NCBI GenBank assembly: GCA_944390115.1
Contig: CALXOW010000019.1
Coordinates: 1 to 47,929, forward strand
Direction: 5' to 3'
Length of the DNA: 47,929 nt
Source: an uncultured Anaerobiospirillum sp.
Lineage (GTDB): Bacteria > Pseudomonadota > Gammaproteobacteria > Enterobacterales > Succinivibrionaceae
Part shown: piece after piece, positions 5,285 through 32,458 of the stretch
How the letters are laid out: every line of letters begins with the position of its first letter
Position numbering within the stretch: the first letter of the stretch is position 1
Notes under the pieces: model-generated
What the model was told of the DNA's origin: nothing
Database searches by the model: none
What the model saw: the letters and a program-made list of their open reading frames with translations, nothing else
Position numbers and translations under genes: made by a program

Positions 5285-6685
5285 ATGTCCTTATATCAGC
5301 GTCTTGAGCAAGCACTTGCCGCGCGCGAGCGCGACGGCACTTTGCGCGAATTACCACTGGTGTCCTATAGTGATAATCGCATTGTGCTCGATGCCCAGTC
5401 GTATCTTGATCTCTCCAGTAATGATTACTTGGGCGTGGCACGCGACCCTAAGTACATCAGGACCTTCCTTAACACTATGCTCGACACTGAGCGCAGTGGC
5501 AGTGAGTTCGCGGGCCGTTTCTTGATGAGCGGAATCAGAGCCGGATCTACCGGTTCGCGCCTTCTAACCGGCAACCACTCATTTTTCTTCTACGTCGAAG
5601 AGCTCATCGCCTCGCTCTATAACCGCGACCAGCCGGAGGCTGAGTCTAGTCCTGTCGGTGCTGCTGACTTAGGCACGAAGGCCTCTGATTTAGGGGAGCG
5701 TACCTCTGATTTTGGGACCGCAGATTTAGGGGCGGGCGCGGTCAGGGCGGCGCCGTCAACTGGTATCGAGATGTCTGCTGCTAAGGATGCTGAGGCAGCT
5801 GAGCCGTGGGTCAGCCTGTATTTAAGCTCGGGTTTTGAGGCCAATGTGGGTATCTTGTCGACCTTATTTGGCAAGCACGACTTGCTCTTGGTTGATAAGC
5901 TGGCGCATGCCTCGATTATCGACGGCATGTTAAAGAGCGAGGCTAAGGCGCTGCGCTATCGCCACAACGATATGGAGCATTTGGCGGCGCTCTTGGAGGC
6001 GCATGCGGGCTCGTATGAGAACGTCTGCATCGTGACCGAGTCGGTCTTTAGCATGGATGGCGACCAAGCAAAGCTCTCTGAGATGGTGGCGCTTAAGCAG
6101 CGCTACCCTAATGTGCTGCTCTACGTCGATGAAGCTCATAGCTTTGGCCTCTTTGGGGATAGCGGCTTGGGGCTATGTGAGGAGCAGGGACTATTGTCCT
6201 CAGTTGATTTTCTCATGTGCACCTTAAGTAAGGCTATTGGCTCATATGGGGCGTTCTTACTGTGCAAGCCCGTGGTCAAGAACTACTTGGTGAACTTCAT
6301 GCGGCCCTTGATCTACAGTACAGCGCTGCCTGCGGTTAATATCTCGTTTTCGCTCTATATCTTGGGTTTGCTCCACTCGTCGTCCTTGCAGGCCAAGCGC
6401 CTTTATCTGCGCAAGATCACCGCCTATTTACACAGCAATCTGCGCGAAATTGGCCTGACCCCATCGCACAGCCAGATTCAGCCCCTGATCACCGGAGATA
6501 ACGATAAGGCGGCCTTGGCCTATAGTGCTTTTAAGCGCGCAGGCATGCTCGCCATGCCAATTCGCTATCCTACTGTGCCTAAAGGTCAGGCGCGTCTGCG
6601 CTTAGCCTTGAGCTCGTGCCTGTTAATTGATGATATCGACCGCATCACGCGCGTCATCGCGCACTGCCGCCACCTTTTTGTTTAA
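5285..6685 (+). CDS. bioF: 8-amino-7-oxononanoate synthase (BioF) with internal insertion
   Basis: A PLP-dependent alpha-oxoamine synthase that condenses pimeloyl-ACP with L-alanine, the first step of biotin ring assembly. Signatures are LDLSSNDYLG (41-50), STGSRLLTGNH, the VDEAHSFGLFG stretch (281-291) and the PLP lysine K316 in LSKAIGSYG. At 466 residues it is about 80 longer than E. coli BioF. Most of the excess is a low-complexity insert at about residues 115-174 with repeated DLG/DFG units, placed between the N-terminal helix region and the LYLSSGFEAN core. It is followed at 99 bases by the first bioG and heads the bioF-bioG-bioG2-bioC series. The start is supported by GGGAG upstream. 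Confidence 0.93.
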   Translation: MSLYQRLEQALAARERDGTLRELPLVSYSDNRIVLDAQSYLDLSSNDYLGVARDPKYIRTFLNTMLDTERSGSEFAGRFLMSGIRAGSTGSRLLTGNHSFFFYVEELIASLYNRDQPEAESSPVGAADLGTKASDLGERTSDFGTADLGAGAVRAAPSTGIEMSAAKDAEAAEPWVSLYLSSGFEANVGILSTLFGKHDLLLVDKLAHASIIDGMLKSEAKALRYRHNDMEHLAALLEAHAGSYENVCIVTESVFSMDGDQAKLSEMVALKQRYPNVLLYVDEAHSFGLFGDSGLGLCEEQGLLSSVDFLMCTLSKAIGSYGAFLLCKPVVKNYLVNFMRPLIYSTALPAVNISFSLYILGLLHSSSLQAKRLYLRKITAYLHSNLREIGLTPSHSQIQPLITGDNDKAALAYSAFKRAGMLAMPIRYPTVPKGQARLRLALSSCLLIDDIDRITRVIAHCRHLFV

Positions 6686-18804: not shown

Positions 18805-19725
18805 CTACGAACCGAGCAGGCTTAAAGCGATGGTAGGACGCTGGTTAGCCTGAGCCAGTACGGTCTGCGAAGCCTGCTGAATGATGTTGTTCTGAGTCAG
18901 AGCAGCGGTCTCAGAGGCGAAGTCTGTGTCGCGGATACGCGAGCGAGCATCGGACTCGTTCTCAGAGATGTTGGCCTGGTTACGGATGGTGGCTTCCATA
19001 CGGTTCTGGATCGCACCTAAGTCCGCACGCTGGCCGTCAACCCATTGGATGAACTTATCAATATTGCCAATAACGGCTTCAGATGTACTTTGATTGCGAA
19101 CATCCCAAGTTAAGATATCTACACCATCAATATTGTTGGTAAATAAGCCAATAGTACCTGGGTTAACACCGGCCATCGAGCCAATGCCAGACATCTTGAA
19201 GTTACTGGACCAGTGTAAAGAGATCGTGTCGTCTTGATTGGAACCAACATGGAATCTCATGATGCCAGTTGATGCGATCAGGCTGACACCCGTACCATTG
19301 TCAGCGCCATCAAGGATCTTCTTGCCGGCAAAGGTGGTGTCTTCGGCAATACGGTTGATTTCTGCGCACAGTTGTGAAACTTCACGTTGAATTGCAGCAC
19401 GATCTTCTTGGCTATTGGTACCGTTGGCCGATTGGACGGCTAAGGTACGAATGCGTTGCAGCATGTTGGTGGTTTCGTCGAGCGCACCTTCAATGGTCTG
19501 GGCAAGAGCGATACCATCGTTGGCGTTGCGGTTACCTTGATTTAAACCATTGATTTGCGAGGTCAGGCGGTCCGAAATCATGAGACCGGCAGCATCGTCT
19601 TTTGCCGAATTAATGCGGAAGCCCGAAGCTAAGCGCTGGTAGCTAACATTCAAGGAATTGGTAGCATTGGTCAGCTTACGTTGGGCGTTGATCGACGATA
19701 CGTTAGTATTGACGTATAAGGCCAT
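18805..19725 (-). CDS. fliC: Flagellin
   Basis: A 306-residue flagellar filament subunit, exported through the flagellar type III system. The conserved N-terminal D0/D1 segment is MALYVNTNVSSINAQRKL with RLASGFRINSAKDDAAG (about 30-48) and NDGIALAQTIEGAL. The C-terminal D1/D0 segment has ENESDARSRIRDTDFA, LTQNNIIQQASQTVLAQAN and the ending ALSLLGS. The variable central domain (about 145-225) is short. No strong Shine-Dalgarno precedes the ATG; GAGAGA is the nearest. The upstream region carries five hairpins with a common loop and a weak candidate sigma-28 promoter, suggesting a long structured leader. No other flagellar genes are in the window. Confidence 0.97.
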   Translation of the reverse strand: MALYVNTNVSSINAQRKLTNATNSLNVSYQRLASGFRINSAKDDAAGLMISDRLTSQINGLNQGNRNANDGIALAQTIEGALDETTNMLQRIRTLAVQSANGTNSQEDRAAIQREVSQLCAEINRIAEDTTFAGKKILDGADNGTGVSLIASTGIMRFHVGSNQDDTISLHWSSNFKMSGIGSMAGVNPGTIGLFTNNIDGVDILTWDVRNQSTSEAVIGNIDKFIQWVDGQRADLGAIQNRMEATIRNQANISENESDARSRIRDTDFASETAALTQNNIIQQASQTVLAQANQRPTIALSLLGS

Positions 19726-19850
19726 CGTAGTTTCTCTCTCGCGATGCCTGATTTAGGCTGGAGAGGCGTCGATCTGTGAGGTGGGAATGCGGCGGCTGAT
19801 CGTGCTTAAGCTTTTGCTTAGATGCACTGATCCTGTGCCACTCCTTGCCT

Positions 19851-20020
19851 GAGCCAAAATAGGGGGGGCTCGTGCAAGGACGCAAACTTTAAGACGCATA
19901 GGGGGCGTCTATTTCACATTGTTTTGCCGTGCTGCTAAATAGGGGTGCAGCGCGCCTCAATCATCAAAATAGGGGGCGATGATTGTGGCTCAAGACCAAG
20001 TCGATATAGGGGGTGACTTG
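19851..20020. promoter_or_regulatory. Array of five hairpins with a shared TAGGGG loop upstream of flagellin
   Basis: Five consecutive inverted repeats each place the same sequence in the loop: stems 19851-19855/19867-19871, 19892-19897/19905-19910, 19928-19935/19947-19954, 19958-19965/19978-19985 and 19997-20002/20015-20020. The plus-strand loops are AAAATAGGGGG, ATAGGGG, TAAATAGGGGT, AAAATAGGGGGC and GATATAGGGGGT. The stems have unrelated sequences but all pair, which is covariation-like evidence for RNA structure within one locus. As flagellin leader RNA (minus strand) the loops would read CCCCUAU; if transcribed rightward, AUAGGGG. A long structured 5' leader or a separate small RNA are both possible. 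Confidence 0.8.
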
Positions 20021-20672
20021 CTCTTACGACGATCTAAACCTAACCAGTTAATCAGGCTAGTTGCAAACTTATGTCCTACCCTCAGCACGAATCGGGCCAA
20101 CTTTCCCTCACCACCTTTTTCCTCTTAACACACAAGGCCGCTCTGCCCGCTCTCTTGTGACCGCTTGTTTGCGCCTAAAACCTTTTATTTATCAGCTTTT
20201 TGCCTCTGAAAATTTTGCCGCTCTCTCTCTTCGTAAACTTCCTGACGCTGAGTTCGGAGTGGATTGGAGTTTAGGTCCTGGAGGAAAGCGTGTGGCAAGA
20301 GGCGGCAAAAATTGGCCACTGTTTAGATCGGCCTATTGCGCGGCCAACTGTGCGCTCTATTTCACGGTCGATTGCGTGGTCGGCTAATCGGTAGTTTGCC
20401 GTGTGTAGGGCTTTGGTTTCTATTTAGAGGCAAGATCGCGCAACTGTCCATACGATGGCCCGGCGCTGTGGTCAAGTCTGGTACAAACTGGTCACTTTTG
20501 GTAAGTTGTCTCTTTCTGCGTTGGTTTTGTCGCCATCGCTTGAGCGTTGCATCTTAGTGCTATCAGCTCCTTTCGGGGGCAGGTGCTGAGCGAGTTTGAT
20601 TGTTTTGGGTAGAAGTCGCGCTGGGGCGTGACGCAGCTTGCTCTTTGGTCGCGGGTTCCGTCGAGGTTTGTC
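20021..20672. other. Region between the hairpin array and the JetD-like gene
   Basis: No convincing gene. On the minus strand, AAAATTTT (20216-20209), 12 bases and GCTGATAA (20196-20189) weakly resemble a sigma-28 flagellar promoter. If used, it would give flagellin a leader of about 450 bases containing all five hairpins. An open frame at 20061-20387 has no ribosome site or family-like sequence. Confidence 0.35.
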
Positions 20673-23093
20673 TTGATCCGATATAAAGATTTGGTGACGC
20701 AGCTGCGTCGCAACTACGAGCGTGATAATGGCTTTTTGCTGCTGTCACGCCCTGAATCCTATCCGTACAAGGTGTCGGTGCGAGCACCGAACTTTGACTA
20801 CATGATTAACCATCTCTCGGAGGTACGCGCCTGGCAAGAAGAGTACGAGAAAAGCGACTTAGCCCCGTTCTTAGTCTATGAAAAGCGCCGGGGCAAGAAC
20901 GGCTTTGGCCAGCATCGCATGCTCGCTAAGGTCTGCTTTGCGTCGCGCTACGATTTTGAGCATTGGATTGCCCCTGAAAAGTGCCCGATCAAGCACCGCC
21001 ATGACTATATCCTGATTGAAAAGGCCCATCAGGTCGCTGACTATGTACGCAACAAACCACAAGTGCAGACCTTGGCCGAAAAGCTGCGCACCAATCGCGC
21101 CGCTATGACCGAGTCCGAGCTCTATGCAGTGCGTACCGAGCCTCTGTTTATCAATATGCATACGGTACCGGTTGAGGGCGCTGATTCTTCGGTGCGTGGC
21201 ACCGTGATCTTGGCGGGCATCGATCGCCTCTTGCACGGTCATGAGGGCGAGTATCTCACGGCCGATATCGTCAATGAGCGATATATCGAATGCCGTCAGG
21301 CCCAAGTCACCGCTTTTAGGTATGCTTTAGCTGAAGCTGAAGGGGTCGACTGCTTAGATCGGGTGCGCCCTGCCACTGCGCTGGTCGGAGGCCAAGTTAA
21401 GATTATGCCCGCAGTTGCGGCAGCGCCTAAGGATGCACTCTACTGCTATGACATCAAGCCCGATAAGCTTATGGCAGCGGCGCGCCGGGCCTATGCCCAA
21501 GGCAATACCGTAGTACCACCTCCTGAATTTGCTATGTTTGGCCTAGCGACGGCCAAGGTCCACTATGTGGTCAACCACCATAAGGTCAGCCCGACCTTGT
21601 TTGCCCCTCCGGCAGGTGCGGCGCTGCGCGAGCAAGATCAATGGGATGTCTACAGTGCCTCCAATCTTAAGGCCGGAGTGCGCGCGGACGATCCTGACTA
21701 CGGCACGTCAGTTGATCCTGACATGTTCATGACCGACGAGGAGTGGACGGCCTATAACTTAGGCACTGATCGCTTTGCCTTTGAGGCGGTACCAGGTTCC
21801 TTTGAGGCCTTAGATGAAATCAAATTCCGCATTAAAAAGTCGTTCTATCCGGAGCTGGCGCCCGATTCGCCTGAGTTTGCGCGGCGCAGTGCTGGGCTTG
21901 AGGCTTTTATGCTGGAGCATCCGCGTAAAGCGGCGGAAATGGCGCGCGACTTCTTGCTCGCGGTACAGTTAGTCGACTATATGGCGGCGCTCAAGCGCCC
22001 GTTAGAGCTGTATTGCCGTCAGCTCGCCTTGCCGCATATGGACTCCAAATTCATCGAGCGCAATTATGCCGTGCTCGATGAGCTCTTCTCCTTGTGCTTG
22101 GGTGATCTCTATCCTGTCCCCGAAGATGTCTTTGAGCTACCTAATTTACCGGATTCGGTGTTGCCGCTGCCGCCGCGCTCGGAGTTGGTCGCTGTGGTGC
22201 CAAAGCCAGGTCAGCACTTTGATTTGTTGGCACAGCTTGAGCCGGGGATACCTCAAGTTGAGCCGGGCATATCCCAAGTTGAGCCGCAGGTGCTTAAGGT
22301 TGGCGGTCCTGGTGAAAGTGGCTCTTGCGGGAGCGGGCGCTTGCGGGCGCTAAAGATCGATCCTGAGTTGCAGGCGGCAATTCGGATGCCTAAGCGTGGT
22401 TTTCGCGGCTTCTTGCAGCGCTGGACCTTTAAAGATAAGCCCGATATGGTGCGGGTGCGCTTACTCGATCCGAACTTGCTCTCTGGCTTTTTTATGCCCG
22501 GCTATGACCGCCCGATTGAGCTCTCGCTTGAGCTTTCGGCCTTAAAGGAGCTCGATGGCCCGTTCAAGCACGTCATCATTTGCGAAAACGAAGTGTCCTG
22601 CTTGGCTTTGCCGCGTATCTCCAACACCATCGCCTTATTTGGTTCGGGCTATGTGGCGCTGATGCTGGCCTTTGTGCCCTTTATGCACACGCGTGACGTT
22701 ATTTACTGGGGTGATATCGACACCCACGGCTTTGACATCCTAAACCGCTTACGTCAGTCCATGTTCGAGGTGCGCCGAGAGCTCACCTTGCAGCGCTACG
22801 GCAGCTATCATCCTGATTTTTCCTGTAAAAATTTGAACGTGCGCTCCATGTTCATGGACCAACTCACGCTCTTGAGCTATCAGGATAATTGGGTCACTGA
22901 AGAAAAGACAGTGGTGCAGCCGATGCCCGCTTTGCGCCGCGCGGAGCTGGAGTGTTATGAGGATTTAATCTCTAACAAGCACGGACGCAATCTGCGCTTA
23001 GAGCAAGAGTACATCCCCTTTGCGCAGGTCTTAGCCAAGCTCCACGAGCTCTTGCCTGAGGAGACTATCATCGCCCCTGAGCATTTCCAGTGA
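20673..23093 (+). CDS. Orphan JetD-like protein (DUF3322-DUF2220, Wadjet TOPRIM nuclease subunit), enlarged
   Basis: The C-terminal part (about 605-821, counted from a GTG at 20628) is DUF2220, the TOPRIM nuclease domain of JetD: HVIICENEVSCLALP with Glu653, IALFGSGY, and the acidic signature YWGDIDTHGFDILNRLR (693-709). DUF3322 is visible as an N-terminal segment (about 15-115) and as YCRQLALPHMDSKFIERNYAVLDELF (462-487). JetD normally has about 400 residues; here about 290 extra residues (roughly 145-430) and a Gly/Pro-rich linker (535-570) are inserted. In Wadjet, JetD cuts plasmids recognised by the SMC-like JetABC complex, but no jetA, jetB or jetC is in the window. The start is uncertain: TTG at 20673 has GAGG upstream; GTG at 20628 has no spaced site. 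Confidence 0.82.
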   Translation: MIRYKDLVTQLRRNYERDNGFLLLSRPESYPYKVSVRAPNFDYMINHLSEVRAWQEEYEKSDLAPFLVYEKRRGKNGFGQHRMLAKVCFASRYDFEHWIAPEKCPIKHRHDYILIEKAHQVADYVRNKPQVQTLAEKLRTNRAAMTESELYAVRTEPLFINMHTVPVEGADSSVRGTVILAGIDRLLHGHEGEYLTADIVNERYIECRQAQVTAFRYALAEAEGVDCLDRVRPATALVGGQVKIMPAVAAAPKDALYCYDIKPDKLMAAARRAYAQGNTVVPPPEFAMFGLATAKVHYVVNHHKVSPTLFAPPAGAALREQDQWDVYSASNLKAGVRADDPDYGTSVDPDMFMTDEEWTAYNLGTDRFAFEAVPGSFEALDEIKFRIKKSFYPELAPDSPEFARRSAGLEAFMLEHPRKAAEMARDFLLAVQLVDYMAALKRPLELYCRQLALPHMDSKFIERNYAVLDELFSLCLGDLYPVPEDVFELPNLPDSVLPLPPRSELVAVVPKPGQHFDLLAQLEPGIPQVEPGISQVEPQVLKVGGPGESGSCGSGRLRALKIDPELQAAIRMPKRGFRGFLQRWTFKDKPDMVRVRLLDPNLLSGFFMPGYDRPIELSLELSALKELDGPFKHVIICENEVSCLALPRISNTIALFGSGYVALMLAFVPFMHTRDVIYWGDIDTHGFDILNRLRQSMFEVRRELTLQRYGSYHPDFSCKNLNVRSMFMDQLTLLSYQDNWVTEEKTVVQPMPALRRAELECYEDLISNKHGRNLRLEQEYIPFAQVLAKLHELLPEETIIAPEHFQ

Positions 23094-25412: not shown

Positions 25413-27677
25413 ATGACAGCAAATTCTTCTTCTCCTCGTAATGGTAATCGTGGTCGCCGCGATAGCGCCGCGACCGCAAGTCATCGTGCCGCCTCCGGTA
25501 CGTCCCGTCCATCTTCTCGCTCCGGCAGCGCCCGCTCCAGTAGCTCCCGCGCTCCAAGTAGTCCGCGTGCTCCTAGTGCGCGCTCTTCAAGTAGCCGCGC
25601 GGGCTCACGCCCGGCAAGTAGCCGTTCGAGCGCCCGGCGTTCGGCCATGCCGAGCACCGAAATTATTATGGGCTCAGCTACCGGGCGCGTCCGTATGGTG
25701 CAAGACCATAAAGGTTCGATTTATCAAGAGCGCCCGCACCGCAAGCCAGTAAAGGCGCGCACCTCCGAGCGCACCGATGGTCGGCCAGTCCGTGAGGGCA
25801 AAGCCCCAACCCGTAGTGCTAAGGCGCCAGTGGGGCGTCGTGAGACCTCCAATCATGGTCTGCCCCCGAAGCGCTCAGGCACTAAGCCTAGTGCGGTTAA
25901 GCACCCAGGGCGCAAGAGTGAAGTACGTACTGAGCGTGGTCGCAGCAATGCGCGCCCGCAAAATCCACGCGCTCCTAAGGCTATGCCGGTTAAGTCGCGT
26001 GAGGAAGAAGCCGCAATCTTGCAGCGCTTTAAGACCCTCATGTCGCAGGGCTCTGAGCCAACCGGGGTCGTGACCCAAAGCACCCCGCTCTACAATCCGT
26101 ACGATGTCGACGAGATGGGCATTCAGATGCATGCCCGTGGCGCCAATCGTCCTAAGGCCGAGGTCAAGGTCACGGTGCGCCGCAAGCGCTTAAGCGCCAA
26201 GCAGATTGCCCAAGCGCAAGATGCTGTCGCCGCCGCGCCAATTCAGGAGCCTACCCTTGAGGAGGCCGCTCCTCTGGAGGCGCCGGAAAGTGCCGCTCCT
26301 ACCCCTGAAAACACGGTATCCACCCCAGAGAGCTCCCTTGAGGCACTGCAGCGTGCGGCTGCCTTGATTTACCCTGAGGGTGAGACCGTCCCAGCCACCA
26401 AGCCAGTTAGAGGCAAGGCCAAGAAAGCTGCTGTAGTGGTCGAAGACGACACTGATTCGGTGGCCGCCGCTGTCGCTGCTGCCGCCTTAAAGGCGACCAA
26501 GGCTAAGTCGGCTGCCTCCAAGAAAAAGAAGCTAGCTGCGAGCGCGCCCGCCCCTGAGGCTCAGCCCCCAGTTGCCGTTCAGCCTAAGCCTGCGACCAAG
26601 GACGCCGTCCCAACAGGTGCTGTAGTAGCAGCTGCGGCGGTTGCTCCAGCCGTAGTTGCAACTGTTGCCTCGGCTGTGGCTCAGGCTGTTGCTGAGACTG
26701 AGGCTAACTCAACTGAGCCAGAAGTTACCGCTGCCCCTAAGACCAAGCGTCGTAGCACTAAGGCTGCTGCTCCCGTAACTGAGACGGTGGAGCCGACCAC
26801 CGCTGAGAGCGTAGCTGCCCCAACTGAGCCTGAAGTTGCTTCTCCTAAGACTAAGCGTCGTAGCACTAAGGCTGCCGCTCCGGTAACCGAGACGGTTGAG
26901 CCGACCACCGCTGAGAGCGTAGCTACCCCAACTGAGCCAGAAGCTGCTGCCCCTAAGGCTAAGCGTCGTACGACTAAGAGTGCCGCAGCTAATGAGTCTG
27001 AGCACTCTGAGGCTGTAGTTGGGGCTAAGCCAAAGCGTGCTACTAAGGCCAAGGCTGAGGATAGCGCTGAAGCGCCAAAGGCCCCAGCTAAGCGCCGTGC
27101 TACTAAGGCCGCTGCGGACACTGAGACTGAAGTTGAGGCTAAGCCAAAGTGTGCGGCTAAGGCTGAGGATAGCGCTGAGGCGCCAAAGGCTCCAGCTAAG
27201 CGCCGTGCTACTAAGGCTGCTGCGGACACTGAGACCGAAGTTGAGGCTAAGCCAAAGCGTGCGGCTAAGGCTGAGGATAGCGCTGAGGCGCCAAAGGCTT
27301 CAGTTAAGCGCCGTGCTACTAAGGCCGCTGAGGACACTGAGACTGAAGTTGAGGCTAAGCCAAAGCGTGCCACCAAGGCTAAGGCTGAGGATAGCGCTGA
27401 GACCCCAAAGGCTCCAGCAAAGCGCCGTGCTACTAAGGCTACTGAGGACGCTGAGCCGGTAGCTGAGACCAAGCCAAAGCGCGCGACCAAGGCCAAGGCT
27501 GATGCTGAGGCGAGCGCTGAAGCTCCAAAGGCCTCGGCTAAGCGCCGTGCGGCTAAGACTGCTCAGGACGCTGAGTCTGCTGAGGCTAAGCCGAAGCGTA
27601 AAGCTCCGGCGCGTAAGCCTAAAGCCACAGCGACAGCTACAGCCGCAGCTGAGGGTGAGCCTGCACCTGAGGCTTAG
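25413..27677 (+). CDS. Unrecognised Lys/Ala-rich low-complexity repeat protein
   Basis: I do not recognise this 754-residue protein. Residues 1-75 are Ser/Arg/Ala-rich. Two less biased islands follow: about 78-110 (STEIIMGSATGRVRMVQDHK) and about 185-265 (EEEAAILQRFKTLMSQGSEP, NPYDVDEMGIQMHARG, VRRKRLSAKQIAQAQDA). The remainder is Ala/Glu/Pro-rich and then, from residue about 440, tandem repeats with KTKRRSTKAAAP and PAKRRATKAA motifs that resemble histone H1-like tails. The islands are the likely functional parts; the tail suggests nucleic-acid or polyanion binding, which is inference. The long open frame on the opposite strand (26681-27496) is a composition artefact. The gene lies 131 bases upstream of lon in the same orientation. 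Confidence 0.75.
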   Translation: MTANSSSPRNGNRGRRDSAATASHRAASGTSRPSSRSGSARSSSSRAPSSPRAPSARSSSSRAGSRPASSRSSARRSAMPSTEIIMGSATGRVRMVQDHKGSIYQERPHRKPVKARTSERTDGRPVREGKAPTRSAKAPVGRRETSNHGLPPKRSGTKPSAVKHPGRKSEVRTERGRSNARPQNPRAPKAMPVKSREEEAAILQRFKTLMSQGSEPTGVVTQSTPLYNPYDVDEMGIQMHARGANRPKAEVKVTVRRKRLSAKQIAQAQDAVAAAPIQEPTLEEAAPLEAPESAAPTPENTVSTPESSLEALQRAAALIYPEGETVPATKPVRGKAKKAAVVVEDDTDSVAAAVAAAALKATKAKSAASKKKKLAASAPAPEAQPPVAVQPKPATKDAVPTGAVVAAAAVAPAVVATVASAVAQAVAETEANSTEPEVTAAPKTKRRSTKAAAPVTETVEPTTAESVAAPTEPEVASPKTKRRSTKAAAPVTETVEPTTAESVATPTEPEAAAPKAKRRTTKSAAANESEHSEAVVGAKPKRATKAKAEDSAEAPKAPAKRRATKAAADTETEVEAKPKCAAKAEDSAEAPKAPAKRRATKAAADTETEVEAKPKRAAKAEDSAEAPKASVKRRATKAAEDTETEVEAKPKRATKAKAEDSAETPKAPAKRRATKATEDAEPVAETKPKRATKAKADAEASAEAPKASAKRRAAKTAQDAESAEAKPKRKAPARKPKATATATAAAEGEPAPEA
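26736..26951 (+). repeat. Two 108-bp in-frame tandem repeats, plus a partial third
   Basis: Units of 36 codons begin at 26736, 26844 and (partial) 26952, each starting PK(T/A)KRR(S/T)TK. The first two are nearly identical at the protein level. They lie inside the Lys/Ala-rich gene. Confidence 0.9.
27024..27584 (+). repeat. Five in-frame tandem repeats of 36-39 codons
   Basis: Five units of 38, 36, 36, 38 and 39 codons, each beginning (A/T)KPK and containing a KRRA(T/A)K core followed by an acidic stretch. One unit has Cys in place of the usual Arg (AKPKCAAK). Unit length changes by whole codons, so the frame is kept. Confidence 0.9.
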
Positions 27678-27808: not shown

Positions 27809-30800
27809 ATGGCCAATCTTAATGACGTCAAAACGATGTTGGTCTCGCTTTTAAAGGCAGGGAGCCCTAAGGCTACCGCCCCAGAAGAGGCAAGCAAGGA
27901 CGCCGGTCACTCCGTTGCAGACGGCTTTGACCCAGATAACCTCTTGGCTCATACCGACCTTTATCGTGATGAGCAAGGTAATCTCTTACCATCAAAATTA
28001 CTGGTGATCCCGCTGATGGGCCACCCGGTGCTACCGGCGCAACTGACGACGGTGCAGCTTGGTATCAACTGGCTTGATATCATCACCGAGGTGATCTCCT
28101 CGTCGCACCACACCTTTGCCTTATTCAATGTCCCTGAAAGCGCCGCCGGTAAGAAGCTGCTGAGCGTCGAGGACATGCCGAAGGTGGGCACAGTCGTGCG
28201 CTTGATGTCGGCCCGCTCCTCAGGCGAGGACATTGATCTGATCGTCGAGGGCGTACGCCGTGTCAGCATTATTGAGCACAATCCTGCCACCAATTGGGCG
28301 ACGGTACGCTACCCTGAGATTGAGTATCGCCTGGCCAACCCGACGATCAAGGACAAGCTCTTTGCTAATACCCAAGCCCTGCGTGACAGCTTAACCCGCT
28401 CGGTTGAGTTTGAGCAAAAGATTGCCGCGCTGCGCCAAGAGCGCCGCGACTATGCGCGCTCGATCGGCATTGAGCTGGAGCCGCTGGCGCCAGCCCCATC
28501 AGGTGAGGGCCCGCATTTAGCCCAATGGCGCTACGTCTTAACTCATGATGACAAGCGTATCGGCTGCCTGTCCAAGGCCAAGCTCAATACCCTCTTTGAC
28601 TTCCTCGGTTTAGGTCACTTAGACGCTAAGACCAAGGAGCGTATTGCCATTAATCTGGCGCGCCCAAGCCAAGTGGAGCTTGATAAGCTCAACGAGTACA
28701 ACCGCGAAATCAACGATTTACTGGTCGAGCGCAGCGCGCAGTTGCGCCACGACTGGGAGGTCTTAGCCCCGAAGTCGCGTGAGCTGGCGGCCAATTTATT
28801 GAGCCCAACTGAGCGCGAGCTTACCGTAGTGCGCGCCGCCCTCACCCCGCCAACCGAGTCCAAGGACGCTCAAAGCGCTGCGGAAACCAAGGCTGAGCCT
28901 AAGACTGAGACCGCCTCCGAGCCTGCTGCCGCAGCCAGTGCTGAGCCGGTTGAGGCTACGACTGAGCCTACGGGTGCAGCCCCAGCTGAGGCAAGTTCTG
29001 AGGATAAGTCCGCCGAGCAGCCGCTCAGTGCCCTGACGGCCGATTTCCTCAAGCTGATCAAGGCCGAGCGCGTGCACCCAGCATTGGTCGATGAGGGGGA
29101 GTTCTTAGTGGCCGATAGCATGGGCCATAACGTCAAGCCTGCAACTGGCGACAGCGAGGACGCTGACTACAACTACAAGTTCTTGGCGGCAATGTCGGCC
29201 TTGCTCGAGGGCAAGGAGAGCCCAGATCTGTCCGCACTCAGTGCCGATGAGCCTGATGCTAACTTATTAAGCCGCCGCGATGAGCTCTTTGACCTCATTG
29301 CTAAGGTCGGGCGCCAAGAAGAAAAAGAAACCCAGCAGGCAGTTAAGGACTTTACCTCCAAGGCTGTGGCGGGCGTGCTGGCGCAGACCCCCAAGGATGA
29401 TAATGACGAGGCTCCGGTCACCGGCCCTAATATCGGTTTTATCAATGACGATACGGCTGTGGTCACCTTTATGCCAGGTCGTGAGTCCTCTGAGGACTTG
29501 CTCCTGCGCTTAACTGAGATCCAAAAGGAGCAAGAGGCCCAGCTGCGCCGTGATGCCGCTGCCTCCAAGTTGATCGCACAGGTCGACGAGGACAGTGGCG
29601 CGGGCGTGGACTCAGACTTCGGCGATGAGGCTGAGGCTAGCTTTGGCATTATCGGCGATCAAACCAACGAAGATGGCTCGACCGAGACGCGCATTGTCAT
29701 CGACGGCGATAAACCGATGCCTGATGACTTAAAGGAGCTCTTGAGCTATTTGATGCAAGGTAAGGACTTAGCCGAGATCGCACAAGCTGAGCGCGAAAAG
29801 GCCGAGAGCTCAGATCAAGCCGAGCTCGATGACGCAGCCTACAAGGAAGACGAGGGCTCAGGCAAGTCTGCCGCCAAGCCATTGGGCTTAGGGCGTGATG
29901 ACAAGTGGGGCGCGCTGCAGCGTGCCGCCATGATCCGCTCTAAGCTTGCGACCTTGCTCGGCGGTAAGGTGATCTTTGGGGTAAGCCCAGTCGATGAGAA
30001 CCAGGACGGAGCGCAGCGTGCCTTAGAGCTTAGAGCTTACACCTTGGGCATCACCATGGCGCTGCAAGAGCTGGTACCGAACAATCCGACCATCACCGAG
30101 GAGATTCGCCAGTACTTAGCGCACATCAATATGTCCGACCCTTCGGTCTTGGCCGATTGCGGTGCTTCCTTGACCAGCGCCTCCAACGAGGAGCTGCAGC
30201 AGATCCTCGACACGGTGCCGATTTTGCCGCGTGCCAAACTCAGCTTTGAGCTCATTACGCGCGACTTAGCTGCGGTCAAGCTCCAAGATAAGATCCGCAC
30301 TTCGGTGGTCGACAATATCCAAAAGCGCCAAAAGGATTACTTCCTGCGCGAGCAACTTAACGAGATCAAGAAGGAACTTGGTCTTACCGCCGACGAAAAG
30401 GATCTCGATATTGAGAAGTTCAAGGAGCGCATGGCCAAGCTCGATCCGCCAGCGCACATCAAGGAGCGCTTTGACGACGAAATCGAGAAGCTCGCGCTTT
30501 TGGAGACGGCCAGCCCCGAGTACGGTGTCACCCGCAATTACATCGACATTCTGACCACTATTCCATGGGGTCAGAAAGCCAAGGACTTAATCGCCAAGCA
30601 AGAAGCCGAGGCAAAGGCCAAGTCCGAAGATAAGTCCACCGACGGCAAGGCTGAGGATAAGACCTCTGACGCTAAGTCTGAGGACAAGACCTCTGATCAG
30701 TCCGCTGACAAGGAGGACAAGTCCGAGGACTCGAAGTCTGAGGACAAGGACGCTAAATCTGAGGCTAAGGCCGAGAAAGTTGAGGGCAAGGAGTCCTTTA

Positions 30801-32458
30801 ACTTGGAGCGTGCGCGCGAGATCCTCGATGAGGATCACGAGGGCCTGCAAGATGTTAAGGATCGCATCATTGAGTTCTTGGCGGTCGGTGCCTTAAAGGG
30901 CGAGACCTCAGGTCAGATCATGCTCTTTGTCGGACCTCCAGGTGTCGGTAAGACCTCGATCGGTAAGTCGATCGCGCGCGCCTTGGGCCGTCCGTTCTAT
31001 CGCCTGTCGTTAGGCGGTATCGACGACGTTTCCGAGATTAAGGGCCACCGCAAGACCTATGTCGGTGCGATGCCGGGCAAGATCGTGGCGGCGCTGCGTG
31101 AGACCAAGGTCATGAACCCGGTCATTATGCTCGACGAAATCGATAAGCTCGGTAAGTCCTACCATGGTGACCCGGATTCGGCTCTTTTGGAGACCTTGGA
31201 CCCAGAGCAAAACAAGAACTTCCTTGACGTCTATCTGGACGAGAAGCTGGATCTGTCGGGCTGCTTGTTTATCTGCACCGCCAACGGCACCGAGACCATC
31301 TCGCCACCGCTGTTGGACCGTATGGACCCAATTCGCTTGTCCGGCTATATCGCCAAGGAAAAGTTTGCGATTGCCCAAAAGCATCTGATTCCACGCGCTT
31401 ATGAGGCCGCCGGTATTAAGCCTGCAAGCCGCATCAAGATCCCTGATGAGACTATCACCAGCTTAATTGAGGGCTATGCCCGTGAAAGCGGCGTGCGTAG
31501 CCTCGAGCGTGCCATCGCCAAGCTCATTCGCAAGGCGGCGGTCAAGTTAGTGGAGGGCAAGTCGCGCATCACGATTAAGCCGGATGACTTAGAGACCTAT
31601 CTGGGCACGGCGCCATTCCGCCGTGAGAAGATGCTCAAGGGCGTGGGCATTATGACCGGTCTTGCTTGGACCTCGGTGGGCGGCGCGACCTTGCCGGTCG
31701 AGTCGATTGTCACGAGCGATGAGGCCGCTGGCTTTAAGCTCACCGGCTCCTTGGGCGACGTGATGAAGGAATCGGCTTCCATTGCCTACAGCTTCTTACA
31801 GTCGCACTTGGGCTGGTATGCCGATCTCAAGGCGCTCGCCGTGCGCGACGCCGCTGAGCGCGAGGCTCTGTACGGTCCCGAGGAAGAGGAGACCGATGAG
31901 TCCGGCAAGAAGAAAGAGCGTAAGTCCTTGAACTTCTTTGCGCACAAGACGGTGCACTTGCACGTGCCGGAGGGCGCGATCCCGAAGGATGGCCCATCGG
32001 CCGGTGTCACCATGGCGACCTCGCTCTTGTCGCTGGCCTTAAACGAGGCGCCAAAGGAAGGCTATGCCATGACCGGCGAGCTGACCTTGACCGGTCACGT
32101 GCTGCCGATTGGCGGCCTGCGTGAAAAGGTCATTGCGGCACGCCGTATGGGTATCTTTAACCTCATCATTCCAATTGGCAATGAGGGCGATGTTAAGGAG
32201 CTGCCGGAGCAGGTACGCAGTGGGGTCACCTTTACCTATGCTGACACCTACAACGACGTGGCGTACACCCTCTTTGACGATGTGAAGGCACGCTTAGAGC
32301 AGCGTCCAAACTTCACCGCGCCTAAGAGCGAGTACTTCAAGGTCAAGGCTGAGTCCGACGCTAAGCCTAAGGCCAAGAAGGCCAAGTCTGAAAAGGCGGG
32401 TAAGGCTGACAAAGCCGAACACGCCGACAAAAAGGACAAGAAGAAGTCCAAGAAGTAA
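27809..32458 (+). CDS. lon: Giant ATP-dependent Lon protease (1549 residues)
   Basis: A Lon protease about twice the usual length (E. coli 784). The LON N-terminal domain starts with LLVIPLMGHPVLPAQ (about 65) and the VGTVVRLM/IVEGVRRV stretch. The AAA module has Walker A GPPGVGKT (1042-1049), MLDEIDKL and LLDRMDPIRLSGY. The protease domain has the catalytic dyad Ser1397 in KDGPSAGVT and Lys1440 in GLREKVIAARR, 43 residues apart as in E. coli. Extra sequence lies in acidic, low-complexity blocks: about 350-410, several hundred residues before the ELI.RDLAAVKLQ-like coil region, a Lys/Asp/Ser-rich linker (about 930-1005) directly after NYIDILTTIPWG, and a Lys-rich tail. All catalytic elements are intact, so it should be active. 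AAGGA precedes the ATG. Confidence 0.95.
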   Translation: MANLNDVKTMLVSLLKAGSPKATAPEEASKDAGHSVADGFDPDNLLAHTDLYRDEQGNLLPSKLLVIPLMGHPVLPAQLTTVQLGINWLDIITEVISSSHHTFALFNVPESAAGKKLLSVEDMPKVGTVVRLMSARSSGEDIDLIVEGVRRVSIIEHNPATNWATVRYPEIEYRLANPTIKDKLFANTQALRDSLTRSVEFEQKIAALRQERRDYARSIGIELEPLAPAPSGEGPHLAQWRYVLTHDDKRIGCLSKAKLNTLFDFLGLGHLDAKTKERIAINLARPSQVELDKLNEYNREINDLLVERSAQLRHDWEVLAPKSRELAANLLSPTERELTVVRAALTPPTESKDAQSAAETKAEPKTETASEPAAAASAEPVEATTEPTGAAPAEASSEDKSAEQPLSALTADFLKLIKAERVHPALVDEGEFLVADSMGHNVKPATGDSEDADYNYKFLAAMSALLEGKESPDLSALSADEPDANLLSRRDELFDLIAKVGRQEEKETQQAVKDFTSKAVAGVLAQTPKDDNDEAPVTGPNIGFINDDTAVVTFMPGRESSEDLLLRLTEIQKEQEAQLRRDAAASKLIAQVDEDSGAGVDSDFGDEAEASFGIIGDQTNEDGSTETRIVIDGDKPMPDDLKELLSYLMQGKDLAEIAQAEREKAESSDQAELDDAAYKEDEGSGKSAAKPLGLGRDDKWGALQRAAMIRSKLATLLGGKVIFGVSPVDENQDGAQRALELRAYTLGITMALQELVPNNPTITEEIRQYLAHINMSDPSVLADCGASLTSASNEELQQILDTVPILPRAKLSFELITRDLAAVKLQDKIRTSVVDNIQKRQKDYFLREQLNEIKKELGLTADEKDLDIEKFKERMAKLDPPAHIKERFDDEIEKLALLETASPEYGVTRNYIDILTTIPWGQKAKDLIAKQEAEAKAKSEDKSTDGKAEDKTSDAKSEDKTSDQSADKEDKSEDSKSEDKDAKSEAKAEKVEGKESFNLERAREILDEDHEGLQDVKDRIIEFLAVGALKGETSGQIMLFVGPPGVGKTSIGKSIARALGRPFYRLSLGGIDDVSEIKGHRKTYVGAMPGKIVAALRETKVMNPVIMLDEIDKLGKSYHGDPDSALLETLDPEQNKNFLDVYLDEKLDLSGCLFICTANGTETISPPLLDRMDPIRLSGYIAKEKFAIAQKHLIPRAYEAAGIKPASRIKIPDETITSLIEGYARESGVRSLERAIAKLIRKAAVKLVEGKSRITIKPDDLETYLGTAPFRREKMLKGVGIMTGLAWTSVGGATLPVESIVTSDEAAGFKLTGSLGDVMKESASIAYSFLQSHLGWYADLKALAVRDAAEREALYGPEEEETDESGKKKERKSLNFFAHKTVHLHVPEGAIPKDGPSAGVTMATSLLSLALNEAPKEGYAMTGELTLTGHVLPIGGLREKVIAARRMGIFNLIIPIGNEGDVKELPEQVRSGVTFTYADTYNDVAYTLFDDVKARLEQRPNFTAPKSEYFKVKAESDAKPKAKKAKSEKAGKADKAEHADKKDKKKSKK

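Follow-up and report, generated by a model that had tools for sequence, protein, structure and literature searches.

Sponge RNAs such as CsrB and RsmZ carry many hairpins that repeat one loop motif with a GGA core, and the flg-Rhizobiales RNA motif is linked to flagellar genes. This motif (RF01736) is a computed structured RNA listed for Rhizobiales (PMC2864571). Closer in setting is the leader of the C. jejuni flagellin gene flaA, in which two GGA stem-loops bind CsrA and the mRNA also titrates CsrA (PMC4894983). Closer in loop letters is sX13, a small RNA of Xanthomonas that has three stable stems with C-rich apical loops, two of them with CCCC, and is tied to mRNAs with GGGG motifs (PMC3771888).

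Here we follow up an earlier note on a hairpin array in an uncultured Anaerobiospirillum sp. Throughout, the window is the whole stretch of DNA that was analysed (47,929 nucleotides). The finding proved larger than first described, with a promoter-like site, a predicted closing helix and a repeated loop brought together in one flagellin leader, and we conclude that this is probably a regulatory leader that acts in cis on a flagellin mRNA whose transcription depends on sigma54.

Hairpins with a common loop upstream of a flagellin gene

The array spans 19843-20026 and lies directly 5' of a flagellin gene, both on the minus strand. Its five hairpins differ in their stems but share a loop core, which in the flagellin sense is CCCUA, mostly CCCCUAU. 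The earlier note had described five hairpins with one constant loop upstream of flagellin, and both the hairpins and their placement were confirmed, on flagellin's own strand; the interval it gave, 19851-20020, is slightly short at both ends.

18805-19725, minus strand: flagellin gene, 306 aa, with Pfam Flagellin_N and Flagellin_C
20026-19991, minus strand: hairpin 1, loop ACCCCCTATATC at 20014-20003, CCCTA invariant
19989-19954, minus strand: hairpin 2, loop GCCCCCTATTTT at 19977-19966, CCCTA invariant, both-side changes at two pairs
19953-19929, minus strand: hairpin 3, loop ACCCCTATTTA at 19946-19936, CCCTA invariant
19910-19892, minus strand: hairpin 4, loop CCCCTAT at 19904-19898, 0 of 5 core motif columns invariant, stem kept in relatives
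19879-19843, minus strand: hairpin 5, loop CCCCCTATTTT at 19866-19856, CCCTA invariant
20628-23093, plus strand: JetD-like gene, 821 aa, upstream of the array

The clustering of CCCCTA hairpins at 19843-20026 is beyond chance. Across 0.80 Mb of the window's own genome, 10 of 265 CCCCTA sites score at least 15 as a hairpin loop, and under the same hairpin scoring 0.3 to 4.6% of sites of 11 other permutations of CCCCTA score as hairpin loops. With the settings used for this background, four of the five array sites score at least 15 and the fifth scores 14. None of the 15 other CCCCTA sites in the window (10 minus, 5 plus) reaches 15 as a hairpin loop; at a slightly wider setting with a threshold of 13, one extra window site passes, near 5732 on the minus strand.

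Several neighbouring genes deserve mention in their own right. The JetD-like gene is also a neighbour in two of the array-bearing genomes described below, G009 (1019 aa) and G010 (996 aa). Further along, 27809-32458 on the plus strand encodes a Lon protease of 1549 aa, in which about 830 residues separate the substrate-binding domain (64-203) from the AAA domain (1038-1176); the upstream neighbour of the Lon gene, 25413-27677 (754 aa), is without a Pfam match.

Occurrence of the leader among relatives

A DNA search located the leader in 4 of 11 genomes of the genus, namely the window's own genome (G000) and three others (G003, G009 and G010); all 11 matched at E <= 10, and matches with E > 0.04 were disregarded. 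The covariance-model search of relatives proposed in the earlier note was run with hairpins 1-3 and identified the leader in 4 of 57 family genomes. At E <= 10 the same model matched 13 genomes, consisting of the four known ones and nine at E 2.15 or worse. A core pattern of the 5' arm (defined below) selected the same 4 of 57 family genomes. Across the order, a three-copy CCCCTA pattern had a match in 14 of 395 genomes, the other matches looking by eye, in an overall inspection rather than one by one, like simple repeats or coding sequence.

In the loci examined, 150 distinct flagellin-type starts were recognised by an N-terminal codon pattern and had at least 300 nt of upstream sequence, of which as much as 400 nt was used to count CCCTA. 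There were 123 starts with no copy, 21 with one, two with two and four with four or five, and only the four array leaders had more than two. The flagellins behind these leaders were taken as orthologous on their identity (95, 87 and 81%) and common neighbours rather than on a tree. The 400 nt upstream of the four hold 18 CCCTA, matching the 18 hand-delimited hairpin loops that contain it, out of 21 loops over the four genomes. Given the genome searches and the counts at these 150 starts, the array leader belongs to a single flagellin, in 4 of the 11 genomes of the genus, and not to flagellins generally. As a separate observation, flagellin copy number is very high in G005, G006 and G007 (e.g. 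L087-L135), with at least 40 to 42 matches each.

Strand, promoter and conservation of the leader

The array is best read on the minus, flagellin-sense strand. Folded in this sense, leaders of 326 to 352 nt gave z-scores of -6.7 (window), -6.3 (G003), -3.5 (G009) and -4.2 (G010), and 0 of 100 shuffles were as good in each of the four genomes. The corresponding antisense values were -2.4, -1.5, -1.5 and -1.3. Because one of five control upstream regions of the window reached -4.6 and another -2.6, fold z alone is not specific and is supportive rather than decisive. Counts of G-U pairs (10 versus 7) did not separate the strands.

A promoter-like site on the same strand precedes the array:

20085-20100, minus strand: sigma54-type promoter TTGGCCCGATTCGTGC (GG-N10-GC), with column conservation over 20084-20100

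Its sequence, TTGGCCC-N5-GTGC, fits the GG-N10-GC consensus of sigma54, and an RpoN DNA-binding domain is present in all four array-bearing genomes. Transcription would start near 20073 on the minus strand. The hairpins would thereby form part of a 5' leader of about 350 nt, whose presence on the flagellin mRNA and co-transcription with the gene we infer. Between 19700 and 20650 there is no sigma70-like promoter on either strand and no terminator-like site on the sense strand. A sigma28 promoter was rejected by eye, as the spacing does not fit its consensus.

Near-consensus sigma54-like sites, judged by the same consensus, were also seen at L160:1591 (+), L162:1670 and 3360 (+) and L163:1344 (-). 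CTAT or CTGT tetranucleotide repeats come directly after them, the sites face away from flagellin paralogs, and the next 600 nt downstream, as far as the sequence examined covers them, hold no ATG start of an ORF longer than 52 aa. These sites, with their repeats, are possibly phase-variable.

Conservation begins sharply at the sigma54-type promoter. In a four-way alignment of the array leaders, which amounts in effect to three independent sequences because two of the four are 96% alike, only 2 of 19 columns upstream of the promoter are invariant, against 13 of 17 in the promoter (20084-20100). The counts further on are 6 of 16 in the start region, 28 of 32 in the 5' arm (20036-20067), 84 of 187 over the whole array, 20 of 68 between the array and the 3' arm, and 38 of 46 in the 3' arm with the ribosome site (19726-19771). 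All 20 bases of the CCCTA cores in hairpins 1, 2, 3 and 5 are invariant, compared with 64 of 162 other positions in the array; counting hairpin 4 too, the figure is 20 of 25 core bases (Fisher P = 0.00017). Hairpin 4 has lost its loop letters in G009 and G010, where its stem still forms, and G010 has an additional CCCCUA-loop hairpin further downstream. Loss of pairing with the loop retained, the outcome that the earlier note held would count against an RNA reading, was not seen, and hairpin 4 presents the opposite case.

Of the alignment cells in stems, 93.2% pair, compared with 20.7-40.9% in slid controls. This four-genome comparison supports the earlier proposal that stems which differ and all pair, around a fixed loop, reflect selection for both hairpins and loop. 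Covariation in the stems appears weak to modest in these sequences. Three pairs changed on both sides, a number equalled in 44 of 500 shuffles; a control slid by +1 column had two such pairs and scored 0.120, against 0.141 for the real alignment. The RNAalifold covariation term was slightly unfavourable, and both-side changes in the alignments fell at 4 of 28 pairs antisense versus 2 of 31 sense.

A predicted long-range helix around the array

Two further segments of the leader, one on each side of the array, are complementary to each other:

20039-20070, minus strand: 5' arm AAGTTTGCAACTAGCCTGATTAACTGGTTAGG, which pairs with the 3' arm or forms a local hairpin
19726-19766, minus strand: 3' arm and ribosome-binding region, CCTCTCCAG-CCTA-AATCAGGC-ATCGC-GAGAGAG-AAACTACG
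Complementary arm segments of the closing helix: GCCUGAUU/AAUCAGGC

In the window, the 5' arm contributes GCCTGATT to a pairing with AATCAGGC (19753-19746) and CTGG to one with CCAG. In the consensus fold of the whole leader, GCCUGAUU-nn-CUGG of the 5' arm bridges nearly 300 nt to pair with CCAG-...-AA(A/G)UCAGGC in the 3' arm. When the 5' arm is paired with the leader's last 60 nt, the duplex scores -28.0 to -29.8 kcal/mol, which none of 500 shuffles equalled in any of the four genomes. The modelled closing helix, which stands beside the Shine-Dalgarno site and round the array, is new relative to the original observation. Both arms hardly vary, so compensatory changes do not establish that they pair, and conservation of the 5' arm could instead reflect an enhancer site in the DNA.

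Whether no coding sequence or 30 nt of it is included, the long-range helix belongs to the minimum-energy fold of all four leaders, where it beats folds without pairs spanning more than 100 nt by 10 to 16 kcal/mol. With 60 nt of coding sequence, and with 5' ends slightly longer in three of the leaders, three of the four folds drop the helix and only G010 keeps it. An upstream CUCUC pairs with GAGAG, the Shine-Dalgarno site, when the window and G003 leaders fold locally. The long-range form has the first three GAGAGAG bases paired in all four genomes. The models would thus allow a possible switch between long-range and local forms. Since neither modelled form leaves the Shine-Dalgarno site fully free, the direction of control is not readable from the folds.

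Candidate partners and alternative readings

Candidate binding partners were sought among G-rich sequences. No GGGG or [CT]AGGG occurs in the four flagellin coding regions, so a G-rich partner within the flagellin mRNA was not found there. Hairpins with a TAGGGG loop were rejected as partner RNAs, since 14 of 265 such sites score, a rate much like that of CCCCTA (10/265). Two that were inspected by eye are, respectively, a terminator-like hairpin after a gene that looks like accD and a hairpin within a coding-looking stretch. As a side observation, 26-base tandem repeats with CCCCTA occur at G000:C100:98514-98571 and G000:C113:23-80, and their sites form no hairpins.

The array might be released from the leader, for instance by cutting of the long-range helix, or be an independent small RNA, its C-rich loops pairing with G-rich mRNA sites as in sX13. 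The C-rich apical loops do resemble the CCCC loops of sX13, several loops sit on one RNA with a separate sigma54-type promoter, and TAGGGG-N4-9-ATG exceeds the reversed pattern by about 1.5 to 2.6 times over four whole genomes (91 versus 44 in G000, 97 versus 38 in G003, 72 versus 33 in G009 and 81 versus 55 in G010). We nevertheless consider this unlikely: the sense strand is without a terminator-like site from 19700 to 20650, and the comparison of the loops with C-rich anti-Shine-Dalgarno loops, drawn in the earlier note, was not upheld by the candidate targets in the parts of genomes sampled. Of about 524 ORFs, 3 carry TAGGGG within the 20 nt upstream; two background stretches gave 2 and 7. 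The motif was conserved upstream in none of 183 ortholog pairs, but this test has low power, since 12 of 29 other motif permutations scored 0 too. Both tests sampled parts of two genomes, namely 0.85 Mb out of 3.64 Mb for G000 and 1.22 Mb out of about 3.3 Mb for G009. The excess of TAGGGG-N4-9-ATG persists, and its interpretation as target enrichment was borne out neither by the ORF counts nor by the low-power ortholog test. Plain GGGG is conserved upstream in 16 of 183 ortholog pairs, a count without a control. That the leader serves as a sponge, its loops titrating an RNA-binding protein or a G-rich RNA from other motility mRNAs, is quite unlikely. Several identical sites in an mRNA assumed to be abundant would suit a sponge, and the C. 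jejuni flaA mRNA, which titrates CsrA, supplies a precedent (PMC4894983). Against this, no second target class is visible, since no second hairpin array was recognised in G000 and single CCCCTA hairpins occur at a background-like rate. Other CCCCTA/CCCTA clusters in G000 (C1, C100, C102 and C113) were rejected as arrays, as one site in the four scores 18 as a hairpin and the rest 12.5 or less.

An element acting at the DNA level is very unlikely. Its inverted repeats or 5' arm would bind an activator of the sigma54 promoter downstream of the start, as in Vibrio flagellin promoters, whose activator sites lie downstream, and the near-invariant 5' arm (28/32) is indeed close downstream of the promoter. 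A double-stranded site, however, needs no different palindrome round each copy, the fold signal is strand-specific, and the 3' arm is conserved as the complement of the 5' arm. The earlier note had also considered a CsrB-like protein sponge read from the other strand, and such a plus-strand RNA is barely credible here. Its loops would read AUAGGGGG, CsrA has one match in each of 6 genomes searched, and GGA occurs in 3 of 21 antisense loops over four genomes; yet 0 of the 5 window loops on the plus strand hold GGA, agreeing with the earlier remark that this core of CsrA sites is missing, and the antisense fold is weak (z -1.3 to -2.4). A sigma70-like promoter is likewise absent from 19700 to 20650, and conservation stops at the minus-strand promoter. 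With GGA in 0 of 21 sense loops over the four genomes as well, loop content and strand (fold z, promoter search) led us to reject a CsrA sponge. Outside the five hairpins, three of the four genomes retain a ACAGGATCAG-like stretch, with small changes.

Proposed mechanism

We favour a cis-acting leader of the flagellin mRNA. Its computed support comprises a strand-preferring fold, the hairpins, loop conservation, long-range complementarity and conservation of the promoter-like site; the RNA element itself is well supported, and its partner and direction of control are proposals. The 5' end of the roughly 350-nt leader would pair with the segment just before the start codon and close a multi-branched structure bearing four to five hairpins, each presenting the same CCCUA-centred loop as a single strand. 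These loops may be bound together by several copies of one trans factor, which is most likely an RNA-binding protein and less likely a G-rich RNA; a protein is the partner that we prefer for CCCUA loops. Binding would change how often the leader adopts the closed long-range form rather than the local one, where CUCUC covers the GAGAG Shine-Dalgarno site, and flagellin translation or mRNA life would follow the state of the factor.

One bolder extension, which we hold tentatively and as a minority possibility, is that some undescribed bacterial RNA-binding protein reads CCCUA in a loop as its recognition code, with the four or five copies in the flagellin mRNA serving both the control of that mRNA, through the closing helix over the ribosome site, and titration in step with flagellum assembly. 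Flagellin is costly to make, and the RNA-level control with which we compared the leader (CsrA with FliW) does not fit it. The leader looks like an undescribed control element for the flagellum's main protein, and its four or five copies of one loop with a predicted closing helix are a ready bait for a new RNA-binding regulator of motility.

Comparison with known systems

Searched against Rfam 15, the leader matched no family over the gathering threshold: 19700-20120 gave weak matches of 13.9 and 13.2 bits, far below the cut-off, and the only families found in the window were two tRNAs. Among the open PMC papers listed, none describes the array leader by title or abstract. The suggestion that this is an undescribed regulatory RNA for motility accordingly holds in that the element belongs to a flagellin leader and to no known RNA family; that it controls motility we infer.

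CsrB and RsmZ resemble the array in repeating one loop motif over hairpins in organisms that encode CsrA, and differ in that the sense loops here are without GGA. The flg-Rhizobiales motif is likewise a computed structured RNA named for flagellar genes, and the array leader does not match RF01736 (PMC2864571). sX13 is the closest in loop letters, its apical loops being C-rich as are those of the array, where 18 of 21 hold CCCTA. It differs in that the array stands upstream of a coding gene in what would be one transcript and has a loop fixed further, to CCCUA; sX13 also has a link to mRNAs of the GGGG type, whereas in the parts of genomes sampled no such target class was established for the array leader (PMC3771888). 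An sX13-type assignment, which would need a separate RNA and a target class, is unproved. With regard to riboswitches, in which a closing helix would control the ribosome site, the comparison yields the long-range helix predicted beside the Shine-Dalgarno site, lost from three of the four folds once 60 nt of coding sequence are included. The C. jejuni flaA leader is the closest in setting, with leader hairpins of a flagellin gene, which here would be co-transcribed with it. Its stem-loops are bound by a regulator and its mRNA is both coding and regulatory, a role that is predicted here. Unlike flaA, the present leader has four or five CCCUA loops without GGA and a predicted long-range closing helix (PMC4894983), and assignment to the flaA family fails because the hairpin loops here lack GGA. 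Judged from its sequence, the array leader appears to take its place among structured flagellin leaders.
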